Shown piece by piece: positions 467 through 23,224 of a stretch of DNA of 29,091 nucleotides. Numbering within the stretch: the stretch's first letter is position 1; each line of letters starts with the position of its first letter. The DNA lies in IMG/VR virus record IMGVR_UViG_3300042691_000707, positions 1 through 29,091 of that record, one strand, 5' to 3'. This DNA is from a virus. Below the pieces are notes generated by a model. It saw only the letters and a list, made by a program, of their open reading frames with translations, was not told the origin of the DNA and ran no database searches. The position numbers and the translations under genes were made by a program.

Positions 467-494
467 ACCCCCGGCTTGACCGGGGGTCTTTTTT
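467..494 (+). terminator. Intrinsic terminator of the plus-strand unit
   Basis: An 8-bp perfect GC-rich stem (467-474 pairs with 480-487) with a 5-base loop is followed by CTTTTTT at 488-494. The U-tract lies on the plus strand, so it ends transcription of the two small left-hand genes. It runs into the stop codon of the convergent giant gene (493). On the minus strand the hairpin follows that gene's stop but has no U-tract after it, so any effect there would be weaker. The 90 bases between 402 and 493 hold nothing else I can call. Confidence 0.85.
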
Positions 495-3400: not shown

Positions 3401-6324
3401 CACAAAGACATTGCAGGAACTTCAGACCGCTTCTCCTTCAACGTGTTGCGGAAACTCTCGTTGCTCCAAAGCTCAGCAACAAACTCCTGCAAGTTTTTCG
3501 CCCCATAGGCACCGTCGATGTCCGCTTTGACCTGCTCAAAAATCCGGGCCAACTGCTTGGTGACCGGGTGTGACGGATTCTCGATGACGTGGGACAGCCC
3601 CGCATGGGAGGCTTCGTGCATAAGCTCGTAGTCCGTAGCCCCATTCGGCAAGTAGATGGTGTTGGTCTTGGGGTCATACATGGCTTTCTCAGCGCCATAC
3701 ACAACTTTCACATCCCCCAACACACTGGCAAGAGTGTCCGCGATCTTGGCCAGACGAGGCTGGTCGATCGAATCCGCAAAGAGTTTCAGGGCGCTAACCA
3801 GATTGCCTTGGCGTAGGGCAGCGGTAACCGCAGGGTGGAGTTCCGTAGACAGTGTGGCGATCTCAGGGGAGGCCAAAAGCGCATCCAGATCCGACGCGGT
3901 GATCGACATCATGTCATCGCCCAGATCCCCAAACTCCCGAATAGCCTGCTCGGCCAGCTTACGCGCCTGACGACGGGTCTTGGGCTTGGCCTTGATGCCG
4001 AACTCTTTGCGGTCAGCTTCCAGATCGGACAGAGCATCCCGGTCAGCAGTCTCGGCCTTGGCCTGCTCCGCAGACACCTGCTTTTTGGTGTTCTTGCGGG
4101 CCTCTTGCTGCGTATCGAGCTTCTTGCGGAACTTGGCGGACTTCTCCGCTTCTTTCGTGTACTGCGCAACCCACTTGTCTAGGTAAGCGACGTTCTCGGG
4201 GGAGAGGTTGGCACGGGCCCACTCGGCAGCGTTCTTGGCATGCACCCCGCCCTGACCACGGAACATTTCAGCTTCTTTTTCCGTAGCGAACAGAGGCTCC
4301 GCGCCTTCGGCGGTGCCTTCGAACGCCTTCATCTTGGCGTTGCGATAAGCAGTGGGCTGATAGACCAGATCGTTGGCAATTGACCGCAGCGCGGTCTCGG
4401 TGTCCATGCGCCCGAAATAAGCACGGGCGTCCTTCTCCTGCGGAGTGACGTTCTTGCGGTCAAGCGCCGTGACTGTGGTGCGGTCGGCGGGGCTATCAAC
4501 GTAGGCGGACTCGGGGATGTCCGGCTCTTGCTCAAGATCCAGTTCGCTGCCGAACTCTTTGACCTGCTTAATCAGAGCTTCAGCCCGGTACAGTTCAATA
4601 CCGAGTTCTGCCGCCAGTTCTTTAGGATCAGTGACCCCCGTCTGATACAGGCTAGTAGCTACGCCCAGCAGTTCTTCGGAGTCACGCTGCACCTGCTCCG
4701 CACGTTGAAGGATCTCGCTGGCGCGATTTACTGGAGCGGGCTGCTCTGCTTCTCTTCCAGCAGGCAGTCCAGCATCCGTTGCAGGAGAAACCACTCCAGT
4801 TGATTCAGGCTCTCCAGTTGCTGCGGCGGCGGTGTCGGCAGCGGATCCGCCAGCCACGCCAGTGCTTGCTCCACTTGGCTGTTTGACAGGTTTTGCAGTA
4901 GAGACACTTGGGGCTCCTTGTATTTCCGTGCGAGCCGTAGCAACCTGCTCGGGGTTGAGCTTAGCGACCAACTCATCGTACGCGGCCTCATTGATCTTGC
5001 CCATAAACGCCGGGTCTTCCAGCGTCTTGATGAATGCACTGACTCCCTCAGGAGTGCTGAGATCCACACCGATCAGAGACTGTGCGGCTTTAGACCGGGG
5101 GTTGATTCCCAGCGACTTGAGAAAGGGAGCGTCAATAGCTTGCGGCTGCTGCGGTGCAGCATCGACGACAGTGGGTTCAGCAACCTCAGGCGCAGGCAGC
5201 TTCGCGGGCTCCATACCCAGCAACAGGCGCTCTTCCGGAGCGGGCAGGGCAGGAGTACCCGGGGCTTCAGCCTCCGCAGGGGCAGCAGGTGCGGCCTCGG
5301 GCGTTTGCTGACGGCGGAACTCGGAGCGCTCTTGCGCGTAGCGGGCAACCCCACCGGGGGTACCAAACATCCCACCGCCCACCGCGCCCTTAACGAACGA
5401 CTCTTTGTATCGCTGAATGTTCTCAGGCGACAGCAGGCTCTCGGTACTACCCGCCAGCTTCTGCGCATACACACCAATAGCTTCTTGAGCGGCTTCAGTA
5501 AGACCCTCAGACCCAGCCGCCTTGGTGGCTTCCGCGCCGATAGTTTTCCACGCAACGGGGGCGGCCCCGGACTTCTTGGCCAACTCCTCGACGAGCTTGA
5601 GCTTGCCGTACCCACCCAGCGTATCCAAGATTTTGGCAGGCAGTACAGAGTCAAGCACGGCACTGATGCCGCCGGTCAAGGCAGCGATGCCTGAATCTAG
5701 AGTCCCCGTCTCTTGATAGATGCCCTCAAAGATCTCTGGCGCGTTCTGCGCGTAGGAGCCGAGGAACACACCACCGTACATGCCCCTGCGGGAGCCAACC
5801 TGCGCAGCGGTCTCCACACCGGCCAACGCGGCACGGGAGGCGGGGCCTGCGGCCTGAGCAGCGCGAAGCGCGGCCTGTCCAGCAAGACGACCACCAAGAG
5901 CACCGCCACCCACACCGGGGATGATGGACGTAGCAACCGTAGGAGCCAGTTCACCAGCGGTCTCGGCCGCATACTCCAGTGCCTCAAACGGGCTGGCAAT
6001 ATCTTTGTAGGAGCGGAAGCGAGTAGGGTACTCCCGCTCCAGCTTGGCGCGAGACTCCTCGGCCTCTTTCAACTGCCGCTTGGCGTAGTCCTCTTCGCCG
6101 ATGGCGCTACCCACCATGGCAGGCAGCACGTCCCCCGCCGCGATGCCAATCTCACCCAGCCCCCGCATGAAACCGCGCTTGGCGATCTCACCCATGCCGA
6201 TGTCGGGCTTGGGCAGAGTGAACTCGTACTTCTCAGCCAGCCGCCCAACAAGGGCTTCGACCTGCGCCGGGGACAAGTTATCCGGGAACTGAACCGCCCC
6301 CAGCTTCGGCAGGTTGATGATCAT
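493..6324 (-). CDS. Giant internal virion protein with HEXXH metallopeptidase motif (T7 gp16-like position)
   Basis: A 1943-residue protein, the largest and last gene of the late operon. The N-terminus has a short 'G-x-V-x-F-P-D-x-L-S' segment (VQFPDNLS, near residue 11), often found at the start of large phage virion proteins. Hydrophobic, Gly/Ala-rich stretches follow at roughly residues 115-160 and 185-235, then long Pro/Ala/Glu-rich linkers (about 340-400 and 480-560). At residues 903-907 lies HEASH, with a candidate third zinc ligand in LQEFVAELW (E947 or E951), the layout of zincin peptidases in large polyvalent phage proteins. The remaining ~1000 residues are mostly helical. Size, last position and embedded enzyme motif fit a T7 gp16-type ejected protein that crosses the envelope with the DNA; this is inference. 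The start ATG follows GGAGTAAGCCC, 4 bases after the upstream stop. Confidence 0.8.
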   Translation of the reverse strand: MIINLPKLGAVQFPDNLSPAQVEALVGRLAEKYEFTLPKPDIGMGEIAKRGFMRGLGEIGIAAGDVLPAMVGSAIGEEDYAKRQLKEAEESRAKLEREYPTRFRSYKDIASPFEALEYAAETAGELAPTVATSIIPGVGGGALGGRLAGQAALRAAQAAGPASRAALAGVETAAQVGSRRGMYGGVFLGSYAQNAPEIFEGIYQETGTLDSGIAALTGGISAVLDSVLPAKILDTLGGYGKLKLVEELAKKSGAAPVAWKTIGAEATKAAGSEGLTEAAQEAIGVYAQKLAGSTESLLSPENIQRYKESFVKGAVGGGMFGTPGGVARYAQERSEFRRQQTPEAAPAAPAEAEAPGTPALPAPEERLLLGMEPAKLPAPEVAEPTVVDAAPQQPQAIDAPFLKSLGINPRSKAAQSLIGVDLSTPEGVSAFIKTLEDPAFMGKINEAAYDELVAKLNPEQVATARTEIQGAPSVSTAKPVKQPSGASTGVAGGSAADTAAAATGEPESTGVVSPATDAGLPAGREAEQPAPVNRASEILQRAEQVQRDSEELLGVATSLYQTGVTDPKELAAELGIELYRAEALIKQVKEFGSELDLEQEPDIPESAYVDSPADRTTVTALDRKNVTPQEKDARAYFGRMDTETALRSIANDLVYQPTAYRNAKMKAFEGTAEGAEPLFATEKEAEMFRGQGGVHAKNAAEWARANLSPENVAYLDKWVAQYTKEAEKSAKFRKKLDTQQEARKNTKKQVSAEQAKAETADRDALSDLEADRKEFGIKAKPKTRRQARKLAEQAIREFGDLGDDMMSITASDLDALLASPEIATLSTELHPAVTAALRQGNLVSALKLFADSIDQPRLAKIADTLASVLGDVKVVYGAEKAMYDPKTNTIYLPNGATDYELMHEASHAGLSHVIENPSHPVTKQLARIFEQVKADIDGAYGAKNLQEFVAELWSNESFRNTLKEKRSEVPAMSLWDKIVRLMRRVLRMPERTEATLDQVDRLLDAIVSPPPETRTGDSLYAQAIHDSNVASDIFRKLGEATQAQTRMSPEQAARFLGMVETTGMGLRRAMQKFLNLSAVGEVGARVLGRDATEFADNVNEMAGYRENLIERLTPLDKRLQEYTTDPEFTKWTKMVHDHTREDVNPEAPASKYVGSPEKMAMHKKFQQEFNSLTPKGKQLYRDLFGSYKKLFKELQDSLYSNLVGVHAEGTAERKQALGAYEKVISMIISKGVDHYAPLYRQGNFWLQYKNKDGELVRELYDTQIERASARARLESEGNTDFDEYVKGDIQLARSAPSGTIAAQIIKIMKDGGADQSSVDRFLELIVSAMPETSVLKSFTARKGTLGYEENAATAFRNVTNNLVGQLSRMRYSDKLQRNLMNMRETMQKMRGPEAANAFDIINELEARYQFAMKPTVEAWARWASGGAFYFNLAGNISSATVNLLQTPMVVLPQLGGTYGFREAAKALMAATRLYSGSGFSRTVTDINGQQTTEQAMLSVENLVNSGKAPQYEALVKRLKDLGFLQTSTARDALEASNMPGADPSRLKTLGEKTALYSAFLFHHAERMNREVTAVAAYDLEMARLKKRGVTGDAAVQQAIEKAVRMVEYTHGAGHAESAPSIGQSGIGKVLTVFKRFAFTMYYMLFDTIRRSLPVGPNATSEEVEMVKAARRQLVGIYGMSALFAGVKGVPLYWIAETAYNAFADDDEDQFDEVMRRYLGEFLFKGPVNYLTNLSIADRVGWTDLIYRDQKGDKADASVLSQFLENILGAPYAIVNNVFRGQELIAEGQFYRGVETMLPVALKNPLKAYRYATEDATTLRGDLVGEVNGYNAAMQVLGFAPADLLTKYEANAYAKSKEDATVGQVKRLLKQYYVAYNMGDQERMDALAEKLFALGDKHPDLGISDDTISRSVRARDAISRDMYQGIQIDKRMRNEIIEAMEDTF

Positions 6325-8551: not shown

Positions 8552-8976
8552 TTCGCCACCTCAAAAAACTTCTGGTACACCACGCTCTGTACCTCAAAAC
8601 CATGGTTCTGAGCCGTCTTACGCCAACCGGGACGCCCCACGAATTCAATACCTGCGCAGCCCGCTGCCTTAGCCGCGCCTTCTAGTGCCAAGAACATCTC
8701 ATCCTCAACCATGAACATGTGGTTGGGCTGGCCCGCGCAATACTGCACGGTGAGCATCTTGCACTGAGGATACTGCTTAACTTCCGCAATCACGTGCCCA
8801 TAGGCCACGTTATCTTTATGCACTGCCCACAGGAACATTTGCCCGTTGAGCAGGAACCGGACAATATCTTCAACGAGGGCGCGGCCACGTGTCCACTGCG
8901 CCGACTCCTGCAAATAGGGTAAGAGCGCCGGGACGACGCTCATGAGTTGACTGACAGGAACCAGCGTGATGTTCAT
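8548..8976 (-). CDS. GNAT-fold acetyltransferase-like protein in the virion module
   Basis: A 142-residue protein with the strand-helix pattern of GCN5-related N-acetyltransferases. The strand MFLWAVHKDNVAYGHVIAEV (around residues 47-66) is followed by a second strand (CKMLTVQYCAGQ), a helix, then a C-terminal strand plus GRPGWRKTAQNHGFE (residues about 114-128), the 'G-R-x-G-W-x-K ... G-F-E' signature common in phage GNAT-like proteins. The usual acetyl-CoA loop (Q/R-x-x-G-x-G/A) is not recognisable, so activity is doubtful. It overlaps both neighbours by 4 bases (ATGA on each side), placing it firmly inside the internal-virion cluster. T7 gp13 is a similarly sized protein in an equivalent position, so a scaffolding or assembly role is possible. 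A true acetyltransferase acting on host or virion proteins is the alternative. Confidence 0.7.
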   Translation of the reverse strand: MNITLVPVSQLMSVVPALLPYLQESAQWTRGRALVEDIVRFLLNGQMFLWAVHKDNVAYGHVIAEVKQYPQCKMLTVQYCAGQPNHMFMVEDEMFLALEGAAKAAGCAGIEFVGRPGWRKTAQNHGFEVQSVVYQKFFEVAK

Positions 8977-11282
8977 GCCGGGAGGTGCTTATCGGCACGG
9001 CTGTTGACCGCAACCTTACCCTTACCAACCGACTTATTCCGCGCTTTTTGCACCCGATCCATCATGGCGTAGAGCTTACGGGCGCCTGCTTCGGTCGAAC
9101 CGTTGCCCAGTTCAGAGACGATGCGGGCGGGCACCACAAACTCACCATCGGCCAGACGGGCAGGCTGCTTACGCCCAATCACGGCAGGAATAGAGTCACT
9201 TACGCCATCACCCGGGCCGCGAAGAAGCCGACCACCATCAGAGTAATCACCCAGATGACTCGCACCGCCACCTGCAAGATACGAGAGCCCGCCGCCAGCC
9301 ATACCATTTCTTCCATAACGCGGCGAGAGTTCATCAGCCTCGATGCCGGAGACGCGCTTGGCGTAGTCGATGCCTCGTTTGTAGATGGAGTACGCATGCT
9401 CGTTGTCTCCTTCCTTGATGGCTTCGTAGGCGGGCTTGATGTAGTTACGGTACATGCCCTTGTACAGACGGTCAGCATTCGGGTGCGCATCAAGCGCAGC
9501 AACGATCTTGGGCGCGTTCTTGTAGTACCACGCAACGTCCTTGGATTTCTCCTTGTTCTTGCGCATGTACGTGTCACGGAAGCGGCGCAGGGTAGACAGC
9601 ACTTCGCCATCGTCGTCTTGGCCCATGTGCTCAACAGCAGCCGTGGTCAGGAAGCAGCCACCGCCACCCCCACCGCCGCCACCGCCACCACCATCACCAC
9701 CGGCACCGCCATCACCAGCACTTGCGCCACCAGCATCGGCTCCGCCTTCGCCAACACCACCATCGCCAACACCACTGTCGCCAACACCGTCGTTACCACC
9801 AATACCAGCGGCGGAAGCAGCGGCAGCGGCAGCGTCACCAGACCCACCATCGTTGTTACCCGTGGTGTCCCCACCCGGGCCAACTCCACCTTCAGCGGCG
9901 GCACCGGCAGCGGCTGCTGCGGCAGCGGCAGCGGCATCAGACGCAGCGTCCATACCGTTAACCGCATCTACGCCACTCGGGTTAGTGCCGGGGCCCATCA
10001 CGCCTTCCGCACCAATCGGGCTACCAAAACCCAGCGCGGGGTGTGCACCAACGTCCATGGCGTTTTGCGCATCGACGGCAGACGGGTTAGTACCGGTGGG
10101 GTCGATACCCTCGGCGATCATGTTCTGCGTGATGACCGCAAACGGATCCATCGTAGCTTGGATCATGCCCGGAGTAGTCAGGCCAAACACGGTCTGCGCC
10201 GCCTGCGTAATCGCGGACATCACGGGGTTGTCAGCATAGAACGCGGCTTGCTCCGCCGGGGTCATATCCGCCCATGCTTGGTTACCAACAGCGTCTGTGC
10301 CGTTATATGCATACGGATCAACCGAGGCAAACAGATTTTCCTCCGCAGTGGGGGCACCCTGTGCTGGCACTTCTTTGTAGGACTGCGTGACCGGATCGTA
10401 GACGTAGACCATGCCCGGGTTAATGCTAGGCAGGCTTGCAAACGCGGGAGTTTCGGCGGGGGCGGTGAGCGCCGGAGCGGGAGCCGGAGCAGCCACTCCA
10501 GTCAGGCCCATCAAGCGGCGAAACACATTTTCGGATTCCCCAGACATACCCGCGATGCCACCATCGGCCATACGCTGCACATAGCGAGGACGGAAGAACG
10601 CCTGCTCTTCGGTGCCGCTGTATGCGGGAGGGGCCTGCCGCCCCGGGTCGTAGTCATACTGGAAGGGGTTAGGGCCACTGCCCTTGTACTGTTGCCCGCC
10701 TTCTTGACCACCAATCAACATGGGGGCAGCGGCGGCACCGCCGTACTTCATGAGCCCTTTGGCCCCACCAATGTTCTGCATGAACGCATCGCGCCCCGCC
10801 TCAGTGGTAAGACCCTTAAAGCCCGCGCCGATTCGGTCAAACGGCCCCATCGCGTTCATACCCGCAGTGGGATCACCTGCTGCGGCAGCAAGCCGCGCAC
10901 CTTCAGGAACCGTCGTGGCAGCAGCGCCGGTAACACCACCCATCAAGCCTGCGCCACCATAAGCGCCAAGACCTGCCATCAAGCCCCTGCCAAGATTGCC
11001 GGTAGCAAGCGCGGTGCCCCCACCCACAAGACCTGCGGCCATAAGGGGGCTAAGTGCCCCACCGGAAGCAATAGAAAGCCCGGCACCGATCACGGTGGGC
11101 AAAATATTTTTTAGGAAACCCGCTTCCGGAAGGCCGGTGTCGGGGTTGAGAGTCAGCGACCCACCATGAGCTTTGGCTAGCGCTTGCAGCCCCGCAACTT
11201 CCCCGGGGGCCATGTGAACCAACATACGGTCGGGGCCCCGACCTTTGGAAGCAAGATGTTGTGCGGCAAGTTGCAGGCTCAT
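8973..11282 (-). CDS. Large virion protein with polyglycine linker and CFI-box-like domain
   Basis: A 769-residue protein from ATG 11282, which has GAGAGG upstream; a longer in-frame start at 11339 would invade the upstream gene and has no support. The N-terminus (MSLQLAAQHLASKGRGPDRM ... VHMAPGEV) is of a type I recall from environmental podovirus virion proteins. Gly/Ala-rich hydrophobic segments follow (about residues 60-130), then a Pro/Ala-rich region. An Ala/Gly/Asp low-complexity stretch (about 445-542) ends in a run of glycines immediately before CFLTTAA (Cys543). After this comes a helical domain (LRRFRDTYM ... WYYKNAPKIV) like the bacterial CFI-box C-terminal domain. The last ~80 residues contain GPGDGVSDSIPA and ARLADGEFVVPA, also found in phage tail and internal proteins. 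It is probably carried in the virion; its exact job is unknown. Confidence 0.75.
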   Translation of the reverse strand: MSLQLAAQHLASKGRGPDRMLVHMAPGEVAGLQALAKAHGGSLTLNPDTGLPEAGFLKNILPTVIGAGLSIASGGALSPLMAAGLVGGGTALATGNLGRGLMAGLGAYGGAGLMGGVTGAAATTVPEGARLAAAAGDPTAGMNAMGPFDRIGAGFKGLTTEAGRDAFMQNIGGAKGLMKYGGAAAAPMLIGGQEGGQQYKGSGPNPFQYDYDPGRQAPPAYSGTEEQAFFRPRYVQRMADGGIAGMSGESENVFRRLMGLTGVAAPAPAPALTAPAETPAFASLPSINPGMVYVYDPVTQSYKEVPAQGAPTAEENLFASVDPYAYNGTDAVGNQAWADMTPAEQAAFYADNPVMSAITQAAQTVFGLTTPGMIQATMDPFAVITQNMIAEGIDPTGTNPSAVDAQNAMDVGAHPALGFGSPIGAEGVMGPGTNPSGVDAVNGMDAASDAAAAAAAAAAGAAAEGGVGPGGDTTGNNDGGSGDAAAAAASAAGIGGNDGVGDSGVGDGGVGEGGADAGGASAGDGGAGGDGGGGGGGGGGGGCFLTTAAVEHMGQDDDGEVLSTLRRFRDTYMRKNKEKSKDVAWYYKNAPKIVAALDAHPNADRLYKGMYRNYIKPAYEAIKEGDNEHAYSIYKRGIDYAKRVSGIEADELSPRYGRNGMAGGGLSYLAGGGASHLGDYSDGGRLLRGPGDGVSDSIPAVIGRKQPARLADGEFVVPARIVSELGNGSTEAGARKLYAMMDRVQKARNKSVGKGKVAVNSRADKHLPA

Positions 11283-11316
11283 TGTGGCCTCTCGGAAAGG
11301 GGGTTGATTGAGTCTA

Positions 11317-12186
11317 TCACGCAGGTAAGTTAGACACAAACGTGATTGTGGCGATGATGGATGGTGTGGCTGGTATGGCCGGAGTTGATCCGCTGGCTGT
11401 CACCGCAGGGAAATGCTCCAAGGAAACCCCCGAATCACTGACGCGCCACATGATCTCTACGTAGTCGGTCGCCTGCAACTCAAGAAAGAAGTTAAGTGCG
11501 GCGATCAAACGGCTTGCAGAGCCCGTAGATTTACGGGCCTTGATACCAAACTGACTGTTTGACCCAGTTACATCTGTGCCGTTAACTCGGAACCAAATAT
11601 CTATTTCTTGAACATCGTTGGTGGTGTTAATAAACTGAGCACTAAATTGCAGGTTATAGATACCCGGCTGTTCAACAGTAATCTTGGATGGCAGATCGCC
11701 CGTGAGCGTGGTGGACGCGACCGTCTGGGAAATGTTAACCGTGTAGGTGCCCACCCCACCCGTGGTGCCAGTAAGCTGCGCCACGATCCGGGTACCCGCC
11801 GTCACACCGGTGCCGGTCAACTGCATGGACGGGTAGATCGACCCGGAGGTCACCGCCGACACCGTAAGCGTGGTCAAGGTGATGCTGCCAGTTACGACAG
11901 CGGAATGGCTTTCTACTGAAACTCCATTACTGAAGTCCGTAGTGTTAAAACGCATATAGTACGCAACAGCCGTGGAGCCGTCCGTCTGGTCAGTGTCGTC
12001 TTGAAACGCGCCATACGGGAAGTCCAACCATTTACCACCCCGGGGGCCCAGCACGTTGGAGTTGGTGGCGTCCAACTGGTTGTAGTACAGGCGCTGCGCG
12101 TTAGTAAGCTGCTCCATGTACGGCCGATCTGGCAAGAGCGGCGACAGCGGCAGGTTAGGTGCCTTGGGGATGAGAAGTTTGGTCAT
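11317..12186 (-). CDS. Beta-rich tail surface protein with inserted module
   Basis: A 289-residue protein. Residues about 60-95 ([15 protein letters not shown] ... [14 protein letters not shown]) and 167-289 ([51 protein letters not shown]) together form a jelly-roll-like domain common in environmental phage tails. Between them sits a ~70-residue beta module (about 96-166) with [10 protein letters not shown] and [19 protein letters not shown], which looks like an insertion. The start overlaps the nozzle gene stop as ATGA (12183-12186), so it is translationally coupled to it. A role as tail appendage or host-contact protein is inferred from fold type and position; no enzymatic motif is seen. 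Confidence 0.7.
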
Positions 12187-15818: not shown

Positions 15819-15980
15819 TTACTCCGGTTGCGGATCAGCAGGCAGCGGCGTGTTGCCCTCGGCCAGCCACTTCAGGTACTGCTGGTAGTCGGTGTTGTCG
15901 GGGTCGAATGGAATCCAAGTGCGATCCGCAAGCCGCAAAACGCAGTTCTGCCCAGAGGAGGTATTTACAAGTTGGTACAT
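15819..15980 (-). CDS. Short tail-fibre-associated protein
   Basis: A 53-residue gene: ATG at 15978-15980, TAA at 15819-15821. Its ATG overlaps the stop of the receptor-binding fibre gene (TGATG), so translation is coupled. The protein reads MYQLVNTSSGQNCV, then TWIPFDPDNTDYQQYLKWLA, then a Pro-rich end. The 'W-I-P-x-D-P-x-N-x-D-Y-x-x-Y-L-x-W' pattern is frequent in very short genes next to fibre genes of environmental phages and in the ends of some tail-fibre assembly proteins. A chaperone-like or accessory role for the fibre is plausible but unproven. Confidence 0.7.
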   Translation of the reverse strand: MYQLVNTSSGQNCVLRLADRTWIPFDPDNTDYQQYLKWLAEGNTPLPADPQPE

Positions 15981-17104
15981 CACAACTCCGCAGAAAATTT
16001 CATTTGCCCGGAAGTGGTCAGGCTAAACAGTCGAAGTGCTTGGCCCCCGGTCGCCCCAGTAAAAGTTACAACAAGGGCGTAACCATCCGGGTTCATTTGG
16101 TCACTACTAACCCCGGTGGGGTTTGCATCGCCAGAGATAGAGTATTTAATATCCGTGCCAAGCGTACCGGAATAACTGAAAGAGGGGGTACTCCGCATCG
16201 TAGTCTTGAGCCATCCAGCAACATAACCTTGCGTAGAAGACACCACGTTCCCTACGCCGATCATGTAAAAACCAGACGCGGTTGCAGCAAACTGCTGGTA
16301 ATACCGCTGGCAGGCGCGGAGCATCGCGCCGTACTCCACGCGCTCGAAGTTCGTGGCGTTGGTTCCAGCTTCAAGCTGGACGCCGGTGATGTAGAAGGTG
16401 GCTCCGTTGGTGGCGCAAATGTTTACCTGCCCCGTAGCACCTGTAGCGCCACTTGCAGCCCACGCTCCCGCAGTAGTCAACTGCGACGATCCAGACCCCA
16501 AGTTAAAGGTCAGAACGAGCCCAGAAGAGTTGTTGGTGCTCCAAGTACCAGTTGTGTCACCGCTGATGGTGACCGTTTTATACTCCCACGTATTCGCGGC
16601 GGAAATTGTGAATGTGAACGGGTATGTGCGGTTTTCTGCCCCATTTTGAATCGCCCCGCTAAATGTTCCAGTCAAGGAACTACGCACCCAAAAAGAAAGT
16701 GTGACTGTGGAAGCGCTGGCGGTTCCCCACGCAAGATCCGCAATGTTAAATCCCTCGATCCGCTGACGAAGCAAGTTAACGTCAGTGCTGCCGGGGGTAG
16801 CCGCAGAACTCACTGAAACACCAAGATAGTTGCTAAACCCTGTGGGGGGTGTAACAGACCCTAAGTTTTGCTGTAGCGTGAAACGCCCGGTGGGGTTGAA
16901 GTTGTAAACCCAACGATCAACAGCGTACGCGGCTTGCGTTGGTGTGATGCTCGCCCCAGCATTGCGCTGGTCGATCCGCATGTCGCCGTTGATGATGCGG
17001 TTGCGGAAGCCCTGCAAGCTCAGCGCCGTGGGGGTCATGCCGTTGATGGTGGCTGTGTTGCCACCGCTGGCGTCTTGGTAGGTGTTGGCTTTTACGAGAG
17101 ACAT
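15980..17104 (-). CDS. Tail fibre, receptor-binding type
   Basis: A 374-residue beta-rich protein. The N-terminal region has LQGFRNRIINGDMRIDQRNA (about residues 29-48) followed by YAVDRW (about 60-65), a well-known opening of phage fibre domains resembling carbohydrate-binding folds. The middle is Ser/Thr/Gly-rich (LSFWVRSSLTGTFSG, TWEYKTVTISGDTTGTW), followed by GVQLEAGTNATNFERVEYG and ACQRYYQQF, also characteristic. It probably recognises surface glycans of the host. A strong GGAGG sits 4 bases before the ATG. The 53-residue gene that follows overlaps it by one base. Confidence 0.85.
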   Translation of the reverse strand: MSLVKANTYQDASGGNTATINGMTPTALSLQGFRNRIINGDMRIDQRNAGASITPTQAAYAVDRWVYNFNPTGRFTLQQNLGSVTPPTGFSNYLGVSVSSAATPGSTDVNLLRQRIEGFNIADLAWGTASASTVTLSFWVRSSLTGTFSGAIQNGAENRTYPFTFTISAANTWEYKTVTISGDTTGTWSTNNSSGLVLTFNLGSGSSQLTTAGAWAASGATGATGQVNICATNGATFYITGVQLEAGTNATNFERVEYGAMLRACQRYYQQFAATASGFYMIGVGNVVSSTQGYVAGWLKTTMRSTPSFSYSGTLGTDIKYSISGDANPTGVSSDQMNPDGYALVVTFTGATGGQALRLFSLTTSGQMKFSAEL

Positions 17105-17115
17105 TGAACCTCCAA

Positions 17116-17856
17116 TTAGCGGAACACCGCGACGTTGACGCCCTGCACATCGGTGCCGGTCTTAGCTTGGCTGACAAAAATCGAAACTGCGCCGGTCGTC
17201 TGGGCAAGGTACGCAGCGGAAGCGTTGGTCTGCGGGGACAAGGTTGGAGGGTTACTGCTACCAGAGTTGTCACCAGAGGCAGCCCCAACCACACTGTAGT
17301 TAGCGTCCGGCATAGCCACGGAGAAATTGATGTAGTAGAAACCGGCACCCGCGTCCGTGACGCTGGCCACACCCCCGCTGGCGCGAATGGTGCTGCGAAC
17401 AATAGACACGTTGCCGCTAGTGGTGCCCGAGGTTCCGTGAGTAACGGTAAAAGTATTGGCGTCCGGAACCGTGACCACAGTAAAGATGCCGTCGGCAGCA
17501 GTACCAGAAGTGAAGTCAAGATACACCACGTTCCCGACAATCTGGCCGTGGTTAGTGGCTGTCACCGTCACCGTCGTGCCCGAGCGGGCGTACGTCCCAG
17601 CGAGGTTGGAGTTTGCCGTACCGTTGAAGTTGACCCACGCACGGCAGCCGTAAGCCACGGCCGCAGAACCGTAGCCAGAGTTGAACGACAAGTTGCCGCT
17701 GAAAGAGCCGGTGGTGCCAGAAATCGGGCTACCACTGACTTGCACCGTACCCGACGCATCAGGCAGATCAAGCGTGCGGTCTGTGTTGCTGTTGGGCGAG
17801 GCAATCGTGAAGATGCCCGTGCCCGAGGCGTTGCCTTGGATCTTTACTTGACTCAT
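17116..17856 (-). CDS. Tail fibre-like structural protein with inserted module
   Basis: A 246-residue protein. The start (VKIQGNASGTGIFTIASPNS, RTLDLPDASGTV) is a trimeric-fibre type repeat seen in many tail proteins. CRAWVNFNGT (71-80) and IRASGGVASVTDAGAGFYYI (157-176) are halves of a continuous motif in related fibres; here they are separated by a module at about 82-155 (GTTVTVTATNHGQIVGNVVY, LDFTSGTAADGIFTVVTV). The C-terminus is beta-rich. AAGGAG lies seven bases before the start. The gene overlaps the 121-residue gene upstream by four bases (ATGA). Host-contact or fibre-shaft function is inferred. Confidence 0.75.
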   Translation of the reverse strand: MSQVKIQGNASGTGIFTIASPNSNTDRTLDLPDASGTVQVSGSPISGTTGSFSGNLSFNSGYGSAAVAYGCRAWVNFNGTANSNLAGTYARSGTTVTVTATNHGQIVGNVVYLDFTSGTAADGIFTVVTVPDANTFTVTHGTSGTTSGNVSIVRSTIRASGGVASVTDAGAGFYYINFSVAMPDANYSVVGAASGDNSGSSNPPTLSPQTNASAAYLAQTTGAVSIFVSQAKTGTDVQGVNVAVFR

Positions 17857-18218
17857 TGTGCGGCTCCTTCAAGCGCTGGGACTTCAACCCACGAAGTTGT
17901 AGCCTCGTCCCAGCCATACGCCTTACCGTCCTGCGGCATCGGAGTTGGGGCTGACCACAAGCAGCTATCTTCGTTCAGCACCCAAGAAGGATAGGGTTTC
18001 GGCGGAATAAAAGCGTCACGCTGCGCGTCATAAGTAAACCCGATGCCCGCAAAATTTTTACGGAACGGGCGACCTTCGGGGTGCTGCCCACCGTGGGTGT
18101 TGTAGCTGGTTTGAAGCCACTGACCGGGGGAACTATCCACGAAAGAATCAAAAAAGTCCGGCTCGGCAACGATCACTTGAACAACAAGGCCGTCAACAAC
18201 TTTTGCAAAATGTGCCAT
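17853..18218 (-). CDS. Conserved small tail-module protein (MAHFAKV family)
   Basis: A 121-residue protein. I place the start at ATG 18218 (MAHFAKVVDGLVVQVIVAEP) because GAGGAAAAAC precedes it; a GTG four codons upstream would bury that site. The order of motifs (MAHFAK ... QVIV, WLQTSYNT, FRKNFAGIGFTYD, RDAFIPPKPYPSW and CLWSAPTPMP) matches a very common protein of marine T4-like cyanophages and other aquatic phages, where it sits among tail fibre genes. Its role has not been established as far as I know; a virion or fibre-associated role is likely. It is followed by the fibre gene with a 4-base overlap. Confidence 0.82.
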   Translation of the reverse strand: MAHFAKVVDGLVVQVIVAEPDFFDSFVDSSPGQWLQTSYNTHGGQHPEGRPFRKNFAGIGFTYDAQRDAFIPPKPYPSWVLNEDSCLWSAPTPMPQDGKAYGWDEATTSWVEVPALEGAAQ

Positions 18219-18226
18219 GTTTTTCC

Positions 18227-19159
18227 TCACGCCGTAAAGGTGCCGGAAGTGGTGAAGGTGTGGTACGTGTACCCGCCCGCAGAAGTTACGGTGCCACCAG
18301 TGCCGCGTTGATCGCCAGAATAGCGGATCACAACAACCCCCGAGCCACCATTACCGCCTGTCGTACCGGGGTTGCCGCCACCGCCACCGCCACCACCCGT
18401 GTTTGCTGTACCAGAAGTACCCGGGCTACCACCTGTACCGCCACCGCCAGTACCTCCAGTACCTCCAGTACCCCCGCCACCACCCGCATAGGTGGTGCCG
18501 TTCGACCATGTTGAGCCGTTACCGCCCCGGCCCGCACCCGCAGTGTTACCTACCTGAGAAGCGCCGCCGCCACCGCCCGCTTGGAATCCTCCAGCACCGC
18601 CACCGCCGTTGTTGCCTTGACCGGCAGTTCCAGAACCTCCGGATGTAGACCCGCTAACCCCTGCGCCGCCGCCTCCAGAACCTCCAGATGCGCCGTTACC
18701 GGAATAACCGCCAGCACCGCCACCAACCGCAGTTGTAAAAGATGCAAGCGTGCTGTTAGAACCGTTGGTAGGAGAGGAACCCCGGGAACCGCCACCCCCC
18801 ACAACCGCAGAGAATGTTTGCCCAGACGTAACGGACTGAGACCCCGTTACATACCCACCGCCGCCACCACCACCAGCGTTTGAGACTGTGGGGTTTCCGT
18901 CTGCGCCGCCACCGCCGCCCGCAACAATCAGATACTCAATTGTGTACGGGGGAACGGAGTTAAAACCGTACCACTGTGCGCTCACAGAGTCATACCACTC
19001 GGGGGTGCCGGTGGTAGTGTTTAGCCGAATCATTCCAGCCGTTGGGGAGGCCGGACGTTGTGCAGTAGTGCCCGCAGGAATCGTGTTTGAGCTTGTTGCA
19101 GTAGAAACGAGCGTCCCGGTTGTTGAGATACCGGTTGTACCATTGATCGTTACTGGCAT
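18227..19159 (-). CDS. Glycine-rich tail fibre tip-like protein
   Basis: A 310-residue protein. Residues 1-70 hold a fibre-type lead-in (TTAQRPASPTAGMIRLNTTT, then EWYDS). IEYLIVAGGGGGADG begins a ~190-residue domain with many runs of four to eight glycines separated by short polar strands, closing with GVVVIRYSG and GGYTYHTFTTSGTFTA. This is the layout of the 'Gly_rich_2' type domain, and it resembles the polyglycine sandwich of phage T2 gp38 adhesins, where variable loops bind receptors. It is therefore a candidate host-range determinant. AAGGAAGGA precedes the ATG. Composition makes the DNA strongly repetitive (GGT/GGC codons). Confidence 0.85.
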   Translation of the reverse strand: MPVTINGTTGISTTGTLVSTATSSNTIPAGTTAQRPASPTAGMIRLNTTTGTPEWYDSVSAQWYGFNSVPPYTIEYLIVAGGGGGADGNPTVSNAGGGGGGGYVTGSQSVTSGQTFSAVVGGGGSRGSSPTNGSNSTLASFTTAVGGGAGGYSGNGASGGSGGGGAGVSGSTSGGSGTAGQGNNGGGGAGGFQAGGGGGASQVGNTAGAGRGGNGSTWSNGTTYAGGGGGTGGTGGTGGGGTGGSPGTSGTANTGGGGGGGGNPGTTGGNGGSGVVVIRYSGDQRGTGGTVTSAGGYTYHTFTTSGTFTA

Positions 19160-19172
19160 TTTTATTCCTTCC

Positions 19173-19763
19173 TTAGATTACAGTCCAGACAGCACCGGAC
19201 GAGACCGTTACCGTCACGCCGCTGTTTACCGTAATAGGGCCGAACGTACCCGCGTTCTTGGTACCGGGAATCGTGTAGTCAGTCGTTACTGTCTGGTCGT
19301 TTTCAAAAAACACTTGGTCAGTGCCCCCGCCCGTTGCACCACCACCAGCACCGGCGATCTGCACAAAGTCGCCCGCAGATGTATCCCACGCAACAAGAGA
19401 CGAAGTGCCTGCCTGTAGCAGCACCCCCGCCGTCGGAGAACCGGGCCCGCCCTTGACATACATAGGGCTGTCCGAGTTGTTAACAATAACGTAGGTCTTA
19501 CTCTGCTTTGGCGCGTAAATATTCCGCGTAGTCCCGGGAGTCCCGGTAGCAACCAAAATAGCCGTACGCGCTTCGTTGGCCGCACCACCAGCAGTGGTGG
19601 AAAGCGTCCAATCACCGGCGGTGACATCAGCCGTGGAAGTGGTAGCAATCGAATCTTCGATCAGTTGAGTCAACTGGCTGTTGACCGTGCTACCCCACGT
19701 GTTGTTCAGTTCCCCGGTGACGGGCTGCACGAACCCGAGCAGCGAGGTGTATGAAGACGGCAT
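19173..19763 (-). CDS. Tail structural protein with GPIT/WTV C-terminal motif
   Basis: A 196-residue protein. MPSSYTSLLGFVQPVTGELN followed by NTWGSTVNSQLTQLIEDSI (about residues 21-39) is a frequent N-terminal pattern in phage fibre/baseplate-edge proteins. ARTAILVATG and RNIYAPKQSKTYVIVNNSDS (about 80-99) form the body, a beta-rich domain. The last ~25 residues (GPITVNSGVTVTVSSGAVWT) repeat the C-terminal motif of the 152-residue protein at 20915-21373. AAGGAG lies six bases before the start. The sequence supports a virion surface location; no enzymatic residues are evident. Confidence 0.75.
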   Translation of the reverse strand: MPSSYTSLLGFVQPVTGELNNTWGSTVNSQLTQLIEDSIATTSTADVTAGDWTLSTTAGGAANEARTAILVATGTPGTTRNIYAPKQSKTYVIVNNSDSPMYVKGGPGSPTAGVLLQAGTSSLVAWDTSAGDFVQIAGAGGGATGGGTDQVFFENDQTVTTDYTIPGTKNAGTFGPITVNSGVTVTVSSGAVWTVI

Positions 19764-20915
19764 TCAAGGCTCCTTCGTGTCAATGTTGCGCCAGTCAGGA
19801 TTGGCTGAAGTAGAAATATCCTGCCATGTGGACGGCCCAACACTGCTTGTTACAGACCAACTTGGACTCACCGAAGTTGGAATATTTTGCCATGAGGATG
19901 GCCCAGTGTCATCAATAACGCCCCAGTTCGCTGACTGCGCATCGATGATCAACTCCCATTTCAAACGGGCGATTATTTGATCCGCCGCGTTTATATTTTC
20001 TTGGATTAGGGCAAAAAACGTAGCAAATACTGCGAGCACATCCTGCGCCGTAGCAGCCTCAGTCACCTCCACTGGAAAAATAGCGTTTGTGGCAACCGCA
20101 TCAACCCCAGCCGCAGAATCCGAAACTGCGGCGTTGTAGATTGACTGCCCAACGATTTGATCCTGCGCTGCGGCGGTTTCACTTACGCTACCGAAGAACG
20201 TGAAACTGGAGGCGGTAGCATCAACTCCCGCAGCCGACTCAGCAACCTGCGTTGAGTACACCGGGGTAGAAGCCACCGCGTCAGCCCCAACAGCGCTTTC
20301 ATTAACCCGCGTAGCGTAGGTGGGGACACTGCTAGTCGTGTCTGCGGCTCTAGTGACTTCTGTGACGGATGCCGGGAACGTGGCATTTGCGGAAACGCTA
20401 TCCGTACCGATTGCGCCCTCATCCACCACGCCAAACACAGCATGCTGCGTGAAGGTGAAATCGCTGCCTTGGGCTGTTTCAGAAATTACGGGGTTCAGCA
20501 CAGCCCCCGCCAGAACGGAGTCCGCGCCGGTAGCGCTTTCGGAAATGTTGGTGGCGTAGGTCGGGGTCGCAGAAACCGAGTCGGTGCCCGTAGCGGTTTC
20601 GCTGATTGCGGTCAAAAAAGTCGCCGCTGCCGCTACCGAGTCCGTACCCGTAGCAGTCTCAGAAACCGCCGCTAAGAGTGAAACGGAAGAAGCAACGCTG
20701 TCCGTACCCCTAGCGGATTCAGATACCGTGCTACCAAAAGTAATCCGGCCCGCTGTGGTATCGGAACCTCTAGCAGTTTCACTGATCGCCGCCAGAACCG
20801 ACACCTTGGCACTGACCGCATCCTGCGCTGTAGCGCTTTCAATAACCGCAGCCGTGAACACATTCCCCGCCAACGCAGAGAAGGCGGTTGTGGAGAACGC
20901 ATAGAAGCCGAACAT
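19764..20915 (-). CDS. Fibre-like protein made of 15 tandem 20-residue repeats
   Basis: A 383-residue protein from ATG 20915, whose start overlaps the upstream stop (TGATG); a TTG five codons upstream is less likely. After a 21-residue lead, residues 22-321 are fifteen consecutive repeats of exactly 20 residues with no insertions or gaps, best seen in AAVSETATGTDSVAAAATFL. The consensus is x-x-[VI]-[ST]-E-[ST]-A-x-G-x-D-[ST]-x-x-x-x-x-[FY]-x. The C-terminal 62 residues carry five tryptophans spaced exactly 11 apart (331, 342, 353, 364, 375). Such regular repeats suggest an elongated, probably trimeric, shaft of the tail appendages. I recall comparable SETATG-type repeats in environmental phage genomes, but know of no structure or function. 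Confidence 0.8.
   Translation of the reverse strand: MFGFYAFSTTAFSALAGNVFTAAVIESATAQDAVSAKVSVLAAISETARGSDTTAGRITFGSTVSESARGTDSVASSVSLLAAVSETATGTDSVAAAATFLTAISETATGTDSVSATPTYATNISESATGADSVLAGAVLNPVISETAQGSDFTFTQHAVFGVVDEGAIGTDSVSANATFPASVTEVTRAADTTSSVPTYATRVNESAVGADAVASTPVYSTQVAESAAGVDATASSFTFFGSVSETAAAQDQIVGQSIYNAAVSDSAAGVDAVATNAIFPVEVTEAATAQDVLAVFATFFALIQENINAADQIIARLKWELIIDAQSANWGVIDDTGPSSWQNIPTSVSPSWSVTSSVGPSTWQDISTSANPDWRNIDTKEP
19791..19925 (-). repeat. Tryptophan repeats, 11-residue period
   Basis: The end of the fibre-like protein contains tryptophans at residues 331, 342, 353, 364 and 375. The units read like GVIDDTGPSSW, QNIPTSVSPSW, SVTSSVGPSTW and QDISTSANPDW, giving a consensus of polar-x-I/V-x-T/S-x-x-x-P-x-W. 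The 33-base period follows directly after the 60-base repeats. It is probably a distinct tip or attachment segment. Confidence 0.75.
19953..20852 (-). repeat. Fifteen 60-bp coding repeats (20-residue units)
   Basis: Inside the fibre-like gene, 900 bases encode 15 in-phase units of 20 residues. Units 3 to 6 are the most alike (S-E-[ST]-A-x-G-[TA]-D-S-V); outer units are more diverged and the last (ALIQENINAADQIIARLKWE) is poorly conserved. Conserved positions are E5, A7, D11 and an aromatic or hydrophobic residue near 19. Constant length without indels implies a structural constraint on the rise of each unit. Nucleotide identity between units is only partial, so the array is old or purified by selection. 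Confidence 0.85.
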
Positions 20916-21373
20916 CAGACCACCGTCCAAACGGAGCCAGAGGGCACTGTCACTGACACCCCAGAGGCAATCGTTATCGGGCCTCCGCTAATCGCGTTAT
21001 GCCCATCATTGATGGTGGACGACTGTGTGATGGTCGCCTCGTTCTCGATGTACCCCATACCACCAATCACGGCACGAACGGCGGGGTAATCGCAGAACAC
21101 ATCCTTGGTACCAGCAGAAAAGTTGACTAGCGCCCCCGCGTTGCTGGAGGCCAGCACCGTATTACGGGCGAGCGTAGTACCGGCGGAGGTGTATGTGCCG
21201 ATACCTACCTCCCACTCGGCGGTACCTTGCCCAGCGATGGTGTAGTAGGTAGTGTTGCCGTTGCCGATTGCCGCGAAGGTTTGAAACCCCGTGACTGCCC
21301 CCGCCAGCGTCACCGTACCGGTGCCAGTCGTTGTCGTTGTCTCGCGGACTCGATCCGCAAGGACGAAGGCCAT
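20915..21373 (-). CDS. Conserved tail structural protein (MAFVLADRV family)
   Basis: A 152-residue protein with the opening MAFVLADRVRETTTTTGTGT and then VTLAGAVTGFQTFAAIGNGN, TYYTI and WEVGIGTYT. This arrangement recurs in many phage tail regions; the exact role is not known to me. KDVFCDYPA sits near residue 90. The C-terminus (GPITIASGVSVTVPSGSVWT) matches that of the 196-residue protein at 19173-19763, suggesting a shared assembly or folding element. GGGGG lies upstream of the ATG. Its stop overlaps the start of the repeat fibre gene by one base. Confidence 0.78.
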   Translation of the reverse strand: MAFVLADRVRETTTTTGTGTVTLAGAVTGFQTFAAIGNGNTTYYTIAGQGTAEWEVGIGTYTSAGTTLARNTVLASSNAGALVNFSAGTKDVFCDYPAVRAVIGGMGYIENEATITQSSTINDGHNAISGGPITIASGVSVTVPSGSVWTVV

Positions 21374-21563: not shown

Positions 21564-22085
21564 TTAAACAGCGTCAAGGCTAAAGGTGTAGGTCACAGTC
21601 AGCGTGTCTCCAGACACAACCGAGCGATCGCCGGGAGACTGAAAGTCCGAAGCCGAGAACAGAATGCCCGTCGTGCCACCCTTGGTGTTGTCACTGGTCA
21701 GGAACGCGCCGCCAACAGTGGTCGTGCCGTTGATGCTGAACGTGGCCGGAGAAGCGCTGTTGGTGATCACAGACGGGTCAGCGGTAGACGCCGCAGCGAA
21801 CGTAACAGCGGGGCGAGTGGCTTGGCTGTATGCCGTCACTTCAGTCCAGCCAGCGTGAGAGGCCATGGTATCGCCAGCGGCGGGGTTATTTGACGCAGCG
21901 GCACCGTACAGACCGATGTACCATGCAGCAGTGTAGGAACTGCCCGTGAAGTACTTGTCGTTCATGTCCTTGAGACCGACGTTGACCACAAGGTTGTGAT
22001 TCTCTTCGGCCCATTTCAGGTTACCGTCTTTGTCATGGCACTGAACGGTGAAGACGCCGCCAGCTTTAACTTTTTCGTTGAACAT
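21564..22085 (-). CDS. Conserved tail-region structural protein
   Basis: A 173-residue beta-rich protein. MFNEKVKAGGVFTVQCHDKD followed by LKWAEENHNLVVNVGLKDM (about residues 23-41), then YTAAWYIGLYG, TMASHAGWTEVTAYS (about 74-88) and GGAFLTSDNTKGGTTGILFS (about 126-145), ending SVVSGDTLTVTYTF. This motif order is common in environmental phage tail modules, usually annotated only as hypothetical or structural. AAGGAG lies five bases before the start. It is adjacent to the 140-residue protein at 22095, a frequent partner. No catalytic motif is visible. Confidence 0.75.
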   Translation of the reverse strand: MFNEKVKAGGVFTVQCHDKDGNLKWAEENHNLVVNVGLKDMNDKYFTGSSYTAAWYIGLYGAAASNNPAAGDTMASHAGWTEVTAYSQATRPAVTFAAASTADPSVITNSASPATFSINGTTTVGGAFLTSDNTKGGTTGILFSASDFQSPGDRSVVSGDTLTVTYTFSLDAV

Positions 22086-22094
22086 GGGAACTCC

Positions 22095-22517
22095 TTAAAC
22101 GAGTCGAATGAGCGCAGAGGTGCTAGTGTTAGCAGGCATCTGCACAGTGAAAGCCAAGGTAGAGGTCTTATCAGACCCGAAGTCCAACACGCACACCGCG
22201 CCATTGTCGCCGGGTTTGTAGATTAACGCGCCACGGGCCGTGATCGCGCCCGTCCACGCCGGAGAAGAGAAACTCACATAAGTGACGCTACCGTCAGCCG
22301 TGGCCTGCGAAGAAACAGTGGCCGTAACCACCTGCCCGCCAGCAACATAGTCCCCACCAGAAGCCTCACCCGTTGCGGCGTACGCCGTGGTGGTCTCATC
22401 CAACGTGGCTGCATTGGTGTACAGCGCCAGATAAAAAGTATCTGACGCAAAGTTGAAGGAGCCATTCATCAGCCCCGACCGCAGTGAGTTGCAGGAGTAG
22501 TTGCCGGTAAAGGCCAT
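22095..22517 (-). CDS. Conserved small tail-region structural protein
   Basis: A 140-residue protein, beta-rich. MAFTGNYSCNSLRSGLMNGS is followed by FYLALYTNAATLDETTTAYA (about residues 28-47), TGEASGGDYVAGGQVV and FSSPAWTGAITARGALIYKP (about 82-101), with VCVLDFGSDKTS near the end. The same pattern occurs beside head-tail adaptor genes in many environmental phages; its role is unknown, probably a virion component. The start overlaps the adaptor stop (TGATG), so it is translated with it. Confidence 0.75.
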   Translation of the reverse strand: MAFTGNYSCNSLRSGLMNGSFNFASDTFYLALYTNAATLDETTTAYAATGEASGGDYVAGGQVVTATVSSQATADGSVTYVSFSSPAWTGAITARGALIYKPGDNGAVCVLDFGSDKTSTLAFTVQMPANTSTSALIRLV

Positions 22518-23224
22518 CAGACGACCCCGTTATTCTGAGGTAGCGGTGCCACCCGGAACTGCCCACTGCGGTACGCATCGCTACGCTCCAGACCATCGCC
22601 CAGACGCTTGGCCAGTGCAAGGGCTTCACCGTACTTAGTGTTGTACAGCGCCATCATGTCGGGCTCACCCTTCATGTATGTGTACGCTTCAACCAACGAG
22701 CCATACAGCAGCACGGAGTCAAAGTTATCGCCCAACCAAGTCTGACCATCCGCAGCCACCGTGATGGACTCGGGGTAGAAGAAGTAGTGAAGCTCTACCG
22801 GGTACTGCGCATCGGGAGTAGGGCCCAGAATGAAGCTCAGTTCATCCGTCAGCGTCGGGTTTGGGCCTGCGGTGGTAGTTGGGCCAAACAGCGCGTAAAA
22901 CTTCGGGGTCGCAGTATCGTTCGGGTTTGGATACGCCTGCCGGATGAAGTTCACATCCTTGTTCAGCAGGTACTCGTAGTTGCCCGATGCGTTAACGATC
23001 GCTATCGAGTACACCGCCAAAAAATCAGTCGGTGCAGATAGATACTTGTTAGCCGCCGTAGTCAGACCCGTCACGTTCTTGCGCAACGACGGAAACTGCA
23101 CCGAGTTGTAGATGCGCTGCTCGGCCTGCTGAATGAACCGATTGAGCACGGACGGGTTCGTCGCGTACTCAAAGGTATTTTCAGTGTAGTCCTGAATTGC
23201 AGTAACAAGCTCGGTGTAGTTCAT
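22517..23224 (-). CDS. Head-tail adaptor-like protein (SU10 adaptor type)
   Basis: A 235-residue protein, largely helical at both ends. MNYTELVTAIQDYTENTFEY, then FIQQAEQRIYNSVQFPSLRK (about residues 29-48), then YLSAPTDFLAVYSIAI (about 60-75) form the N-terminal helices and strands. VELHYFFYPESI leads into a C-terminal helical bundle (LVEAYTYMKGEPDMMALYNT ... YGEALALAKRLGDG). This arrangement is that of adaptor proteins forming a ring between portal and nozzle, like the phage SU10 adaptor family. GAGGTGATGA precedes the ATG. With the 232-residue gene at 24044 it makes a connector pair. Confidence 0.7.
   Translation of the reverse strand: MNYTELVTAIQDYTENTFEYATNPSVLNRFIQQAEQRIYNSVQFPSLRKNVTGLTTAANKYLSAPTDFLAVYSIAIVNASGNYEYLLNKDVNFIRQAYPNPNDTATPKFYALFGPTTTAGPNPTLTDELSFILGPTPDAQYPVELHYFFYPESITVAADGQTWLGDNFDSVLLYGSLVEAYTYMKGEPDMMALYNTKYGEALALAKRLGDGLERSDAYRSGQFRVAPLPQNNGVV

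Follow-up and report, generated by a model that had tools for sequence, protein, structure and literature searches.

What kind of viral protein is built from fifteen units of exactly 20 residues, and what might such an array do for the virus that carries it? The question is raised by one gene in a sequence record of 29,091 bases from a lake-type bacterial virus, an HTVC023P/DSL-LC04-like phage. We refer to the whole of this stretch as the window.

The repeat gene and its array

The gene lies on the minus strand and encodes a protein with three recognisable parts: a short aromatic cap, a repetitive shaft, and a ladder of tryptophans at the C-terminus.

19764..20915, minus strand: repeat-fibre gene, 383 residues from the ATG at 20915
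19764-20930, minus strand: open reading frame of the repeat gene, with an in-frame TTG at 20930 that gives a 388-residue alternative
20844..20915, minus strand: N-terminal cap MFGFYAFSTTAFSALAGNVFTAAV, with aromatics F7, F12 and F17 at a spacing of 5 residues
19944..20843, minus strand: shaft of 15 exact 20-residue units, with the approximate consensus SETATGTDSVSAxATFxAxV
19767..19958, minus strand: C-terminal Trp ladder, W325, W336, W347, W358, W369 and W380, with a step of 11

Cutting the protein every 20 residues from residue 30 yields 15 gapless units, running from 20843 down to 19944. An earlier note on this DNA had described the same array at 19953-20852, with a phase 3 residues earlier, and had claimed 15 exact 20-residue units free of insertions and deletions. 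This claim is confirmed: at a shift of 20, self-similarity reaches a mean BLOSUM62 score of 1.47 versus -0.35 +/- 0.11 in 2000 shuffles (z = 16.7), the highest of which scored 0.05. Shifts of 20, 40 and 60 alone stand out, with 40 and 60 scoring like 20.

Several positions are strongly kept among the 15 units of the window protein. Position 2 is E in 14 and D in one, position 4 is A in 13, position 6 is G or A in all 15, and position 8 is D without exception. Position 16 is always hydrophobic (F, Y or W in 11/15) and position 20 is always V or I. Strongest of all are the two acids, at 2 and 8. The E5, A7, D11 and aromatic 19 of the earlier note correspond to E2, A4, D8 and F or Y16 in the present phasing. 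Serine and threonine favour odd positions (60/150 versus 17/150 at even ones), while many even positions hold an acid or a hydrophobic residue.

The units have diverged, with a mean pairwise identity of 32% between their protein sequences and 44% between their DNA sequences. The array is therefore not a recent tandem array at the DNA level, and the shaft units are old. The array is continued by the six-Trp ladder, whose step of exactly 11 residues the earlier note did not describe. The first ladder tryptophan, W325, sits in the position-16 slot of shaft unit 15.

A gene embedded in a tail-fibre module

The repeat gene is tightly packed between its neighbours. At its start, the ATG shares bases with the stop codon of the preceding gene (TGATG); at its end, the stop codon abuts the ATG of the next gene (TGAATG). 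The surrounding features, all on the minus strand, are as follows.

22517..23224, minus strand: SU10-type head-tail adaptor (PF24175, E 7.7e-23), the anchor at which the conserved gene order begins
22095-22517, minus strand: small gene of 140 residues (phrog_644), kept between adaptor and fibre
21564-22085, minus strand: small gene of 173 residues (phrog_8123), kept between adaptor and fibre
20915..21373, minus strand: upstream gene of 152 residues, homologous to HTVC023P gp58
19173..19763, minus strand: downstream gene of 196 residues, with the same C-terminal module as the 152-residue upstream gene
15980..19159, minus strand: remaining fibre/adhesin module of four genes (310, 125, 246 and 374 residues)
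within 15980..19159, minus strand: Gly-rich protein of 310 residues (PF21722)
within 15980..19159, minus strand: protein of 125 residues (phrog_7759)
within 15980..19159, minus strand: protein of 246 residues (phrog_11355, tail fiber)
within 15980..19159, minus strand: protein of 374 residues (phrog_4492, tail fiber, E 6.8e-51)

The fibre-like character that the earlier note gave the protein is supported by these neighbours, which match tail-fibre PHROGs. The C-terminal GPITIxSGVSVTVPSGSVWTVV module of the 152-residue upstream gene matches the C-terminus of the tail-fibre PHROG phrog_5342. Beyond the two tail-fibre homologues, the minus-strand order continues with an endolysin-type protein and then other structural genes. 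The closest sequenced phages by structural proteins, at low identity, include DSL-LC04, HTVC023P, HTVC027P and Roseobacter phage CRP-901.

Gene order is also kept among relatives. In all loci examined of the close family, here termed clade A, the order runs adaptor, 140-residue gene, 173-residue gene, 152-residue gene, fibre, and in all of them but one (L003) a gene of the 19173 type directly follows the fibre gene.

Other features of the region deserve mention in their own right. Both genes flanking the repeat gene end in GPIT(I/V)xSGV(S/T)VTVxSGxVWTV(V/I), and phrog_5342 itself measures 3319 residues. In the structural half, a 1943-residue ORF (493-6324, minus strand) matches the DarB-like antirestriction family phrog_10089 over its C-terminal 710 residues (E 1e-78). 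A 788-residue ORF (8973-11339, minus strand), which has no PHROG match and is a candidate internal virion protein, lies near ORFs matching a tail-fibre family and, weakly, a DNA-ejection family.

Relatives keep the unit length and mostly the unit number

The clade A set comprises 20 distinct complete proteins from viral contigs, the window protein included. Nineteen of them hold exactly 15 units; the other holds 10, and is identical in three contigs (L017, L018 and L020). The earlier note had supposed that copy number could change fibre length and so host reach, and the close family largely speaks against a free change in number. Among more distant clades the number does vary, in whole units: clade B proteins have 9 in every complete member but one, which has 7, and a protein related to clade B (L144) has 10, as counted on its sequence. 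Unit length, by comparison, is constant in every relative examined in clades A and B, and none shows a change.

The N-terminal cap is nearly invariant across relatives and is common to proteins with unrelated shafts. The ladder is shorter by two 11-residue steps in many relatives than in the window protein, and ladder lengths among clade A relatives differ by 22 residues, that is, two steps of 11.

Clade B is characterised by the cap MFGFYPFSGASFSGLA and by units of the form SDTLTLTDxAAG... Its last unit carries W in the position-16 slot, and the tryptophans that follow are spaced 10 or 11 residues apart in most members. The clade A unit profile misses clade B proteins, and the link between the clades comes from profile and pairwise alignments, partly through the shared cap: profile comparison, covering the cap and first units, gives a probability of 96.7% (E 4.5e-10), and pairwise alignment places the acid-x5-acid pairs of both repeats in register. 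The same unit profile detects L151, a truncated protein, with E 2.1e-10, and a protein of Methanosarcina virus MetMV with E 1e-4, the latter in one short homologous 20-residue stretch; the best of 700 shuffled sequences reached 0.044. The MetMV protein also matches the PHROG of clade B (phrog_12240, E 1.6e-14), with a further match, to a family of virion structural proteins, at its C-terminus.

Individual sequences add some detail. The MetMV protein (L098 2245-3645) bears diverged 20-residue E-x5-D repeats ahead of its virion structural domain, a relative of the repeat in an archaeal virus. In one relative (L011 5001-6164), most units carry ETASGVD or EAASGVD, as if homogenised, and it still has 15 units of the same length.

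Selection on the array and probable exchange of units

Purifying selection acts on the repeat gene: omega is about 0.2, with a median of 0.20 for 62 pairs from clade A. When different proteins are compared, identity is 63% for units that occupy the same position and 33% for units at other positions; therefore, the 15 units are an inherited layout.

Within this layout, some blocks depart from the rest of the protein. Between L006 and L010, pS rises to 0.70 in units 9-13, against 0.31 in units 1-8 and 0.18 in units 14-15. Across the pairs L006/L010, L002/L010 and L001/L010, units 9-13 have pS of 0.60-0.70 versus 0.14-0.31 on either side. Lag-1 clustering of unit identities in the same three pairs gives p of about 0.0005-0.02, and the value observed for L006/L010 was attained in one of 2000 permutations, these being values uncorrected for the choice of pairs after their unit identity profiles had been viewed. 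Three other pairs tested for mosaicism showed no significant clustering. Because synonymous sites are affected, block exchange of units is the likely cause. Exchange of unit blocks between relatives is supported but not proven. Since the count stays at 15, shaft length seems to be held in clade A while unit content is traded.

A proposed fibre-like rod and its alternatives

We consider it reasonably probable that the gene encodes a small, probably surface-exposed tail fibre or adhesin made of a docking cap, a beta rod and a Trp-ladder end, in which the unit count is kept by selection and the content is swapped by recombination. We infer a virion location, a beta rod, cation binding and adhesion. 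The short aromatic cap would dock the fibre on a conserved partner, and the 15 units would form a regular rod rich in beta strands, with about two strands per unit and a fixed rise for each. The ladder may carry this beta structure on in steps of half a unit (11 residues), as a terminal cap or contact surface. For the acids at unit positions 2 and 8 our guess is that they might hold cations such as Ca2+ where units meet, or else lie along the rod's edges. In close relatives, the number of units would be kept by selection and their content swapped by recombination. Proteins of the same plan occupy the same neighbourhood in the cultured phages DSL-LC04 and HTVC027P, which is evidence for a fibre. 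Also in favour are the tail-fiber and tail-collar genes near Venkman gp51, the alternation of S/T with acid or hydrophobic positions in the units, and the virion structural match of the MetMV protein.

Structure predictions qualify this picture. AlphaFold2 gives the window protein a mean pLDDT of 47.9, with strands at unit positions 8-14 and 18-5. A clade B protein fares better (mean pLDDT 61.5, and 70-80 over most of the shaft), with strands at 3-8 and 13-18, or about one strand per 10 residues and two per unit. Homologous units cannot have both registers, and one model or both must be wrong. In the light of these models, the window protein is likely a beta-rich rod of one topology or another. 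The earlier note had pointed to a rigid rod, possibly with a new shaft fold. The rigidity of unit length holds in all relatives examined; a new fold would go beyond these AlphaFold2 models, whose confidence is low to moderate. A fibre-like rod with a fixed rise per unit is plausible.

The rod could be a single-chain, two-sheet parallel beta-solenoid resembling curli or RTX-antifreeze proteins, a possibility that we take seriously without expecting it to prevail. At a rise of about 4.8 A per unit, such a protein would be only about 7 nm long and would serve as a stubby spacer or adhesin rather than a long tail-fibre shaft. The two strands per 20 residues of the clade B model suit a solenoid, and the weak Foldseek matches of both models are nearly all to what we take to be parallel beta-helix proteins, among them curli CsgA and a Ca2+ beta-helical antifreeze protein. 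However, neither model has a Foldseek match at E below 0.001 (the best reach 0.21 and 0.34), their registers disagree, and a solenoid with acids stacked at unit positions 2 and 8 would require bound cations. AlphaFold2, moreover, is biased towards beta-solenoids, over-predicting them for repeats, and stacked internal acids are a warning sign except in Ca2+ proteins (PMC11795689). A homotrimeric intertwined shaft, comparable to the adenovirus triple beta-spiral or the T4 gp5 triple beta-helix, would lie beyond monomer prediction and could explain the low monomer confidence; this architecture is typical of phage fibres, and the adjoining genes are tail fibres. The unit of 20 residues nevertheless differs from the 15 and 8 of those known shafts, and the window protein has no sequence match among PDB chains, so that we regard a trimer of this kind as possible but rather unlikely.

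Two further explanations would place the protein outside the virion or deny it a defined fold. It could be a soluble or secreted late product, for instance an aggregation or surface-coating factor, given that repeats of 20-22 residues are curli-like in size and that genes for curli fibres occur in some pelagiphages of the HTVC023P type (PMC9599517). Yet the gene is embedded in a tail-fibre module with overlapping and abutting start and stop codons, Pfam detects neither curlin nor any other family in 19 members, and no CsgG or CsgF family appears among the window ORFs scanned, making a non-virion role improbable. Its composition, rich in S, T and A, and the lack of a family match would also suit a low-complexity spacer whose regularity is a relic of duplication with no defined fold. 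We find this very hard to credit: the units are old, at 44% DNA identity, yet the 20-residue frame has never slipped, omega is about 0.2, and position-specific residues are kept in all relatives.

A proposed wider class with one building plan

A DNA scan for the cap motif MFGFYxF returned proteins with the same cap, a Trp-bearing C-terminus and unrelated shafts. Autocorrelation gives a period of 20 (or its double) in L100, L106, L144 and L151, and of 22 in L120 and L161, the last being a family of three loci, one of them the query. In the L100 family, a period of 20 recurs in 57/57 complete distinct proteins, length classes lie mostly about 20 residues apart, and the Trp step is 10, barring scattered extra or missing tryptophans. 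For the DSL-LC04-type family, 22 is the best period in all 62 distinct complete ORFs, a set in which a few ORFs are apparently in the wrong frame or give a weak signal, and the ladder gaps are steps of 11 in 132/143 and of 12 in 9/143. Within the class, 20 and 22 are the only periods observed, in a biased sample gathered through shared motifs and homology. Its members share an aromatic N-cap, a unit of 20 or 22 residues and a Trp step of 10 or 11, with few irregular gaps, and the cultured phages DSL-LC04, Venkman and probably HTVC027P have proteins of the same plan.

The cap-shaft-ladder plan recurs with unrelated shaft sequences. These proteins are a real, uncharacterised modular family, and our literature search found no paper describing this architecture. 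Blocks of constant length and mostly constant number, with swapped content, suggest a modular way of building virus fibres that has not been described. We tentatively raise the idea, which we think somewhat doubtful, that many small aquatic-phage fibres share one undescribed beta-rod fold of 10- or 11-residue strand-plus-turn steps, with shaft units that are interchangeable and defined by length, while geometry, dock and ladder are kept. If true, shaft units of two steps (20 or 22 residues) could be replaced by others of unrelated sequence, and length rather than sequence would define the shaft across a widespread class of phage proteins that lack annotation, now mostly labelled hypothetical or misnamed, as with the HERC6-like Venkman gp51. 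It would also provide a simple recognition rule, and a protein in which the structure of a regular beta rod could tractably be solved. Clade A is a clean case, where recombination appears to swap shaft content at constant total length.

Comparison with known systems

The window protein has no family match in Pfam, PHROGs or NCBIfam, and no direct match among sequenced phages at E 1e-3. In prokaryote genomes, two scans, both weak tests, brought up no relative: the A1 profile found none, and among 592 matches to an archaeal-style Ser repeat pattern not one was confirmed as related, possibly owing to low-complexity masking. Matches of the consensus unit to Synechococcus fibres, phiH and PhiCh1 were set aside, as most of their E-values are weak; the PhiCh1 repeats are also 10-residue AMDAVSxSQT-like units without the E-x5-D pattern.

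Clade B (phrog_12240, labelled as of function unknown) and MetMV AZF89921 share with clade A the 20-residue units and the acid-x5-D pair. Clade B differs in having 7, 9 or 10 units, and the MetMV protein in having interrupted units and, fused to them, a virion structural domain.

Venkman EXVC282S gp51 (MT375522) and the uncultured L100-type family resemble the window protein: they have an aromatic N-cap (MYGLSAFSQSPYSALG), a period of exactly 20 residues and a Trp ladder at the C-terminus, and are encoded in the fibre gene cluster; gp51 lies close to genes annotated as tail fiber and tail collar. Their unit sequence is different, however, without the E-x5-D acids, and the ladder step is 10 rather than 11. 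Unlike clade A, the L100-type family has about 8 to 12 units, judged by the first ladder Trp. The Venkman gene (L167 8001-8717) is labelled a putative E3 ubiquitin-protein ligase HERC6, likely a misannotation of a repeat/Trp-ladder protein.

Two VTG-repeat proteins, that of DSL-LC04 at 59268-60398 and HTVC027P gp68, the latter with weak repeats, occupy the same neighbourhood, adjoining homologues of window gene 22095-22517, and have an aromatic WG-x3-WG N-terminus and C-terminal Trp residues. Proteins of the DSL type differ from the window protein in their 22-residue unit, a VTGVQxTGxVG repeat of unrelated sequence. The T7-like tail fibres of marine pelagiphages combine a PF03906 N-terminus with a variable C-terminal binding domain (PMC3909814). 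In the window protein, by contrast, the N-terminus is a short aromatic cap, and the Trp ladder at the far end is kept as well.
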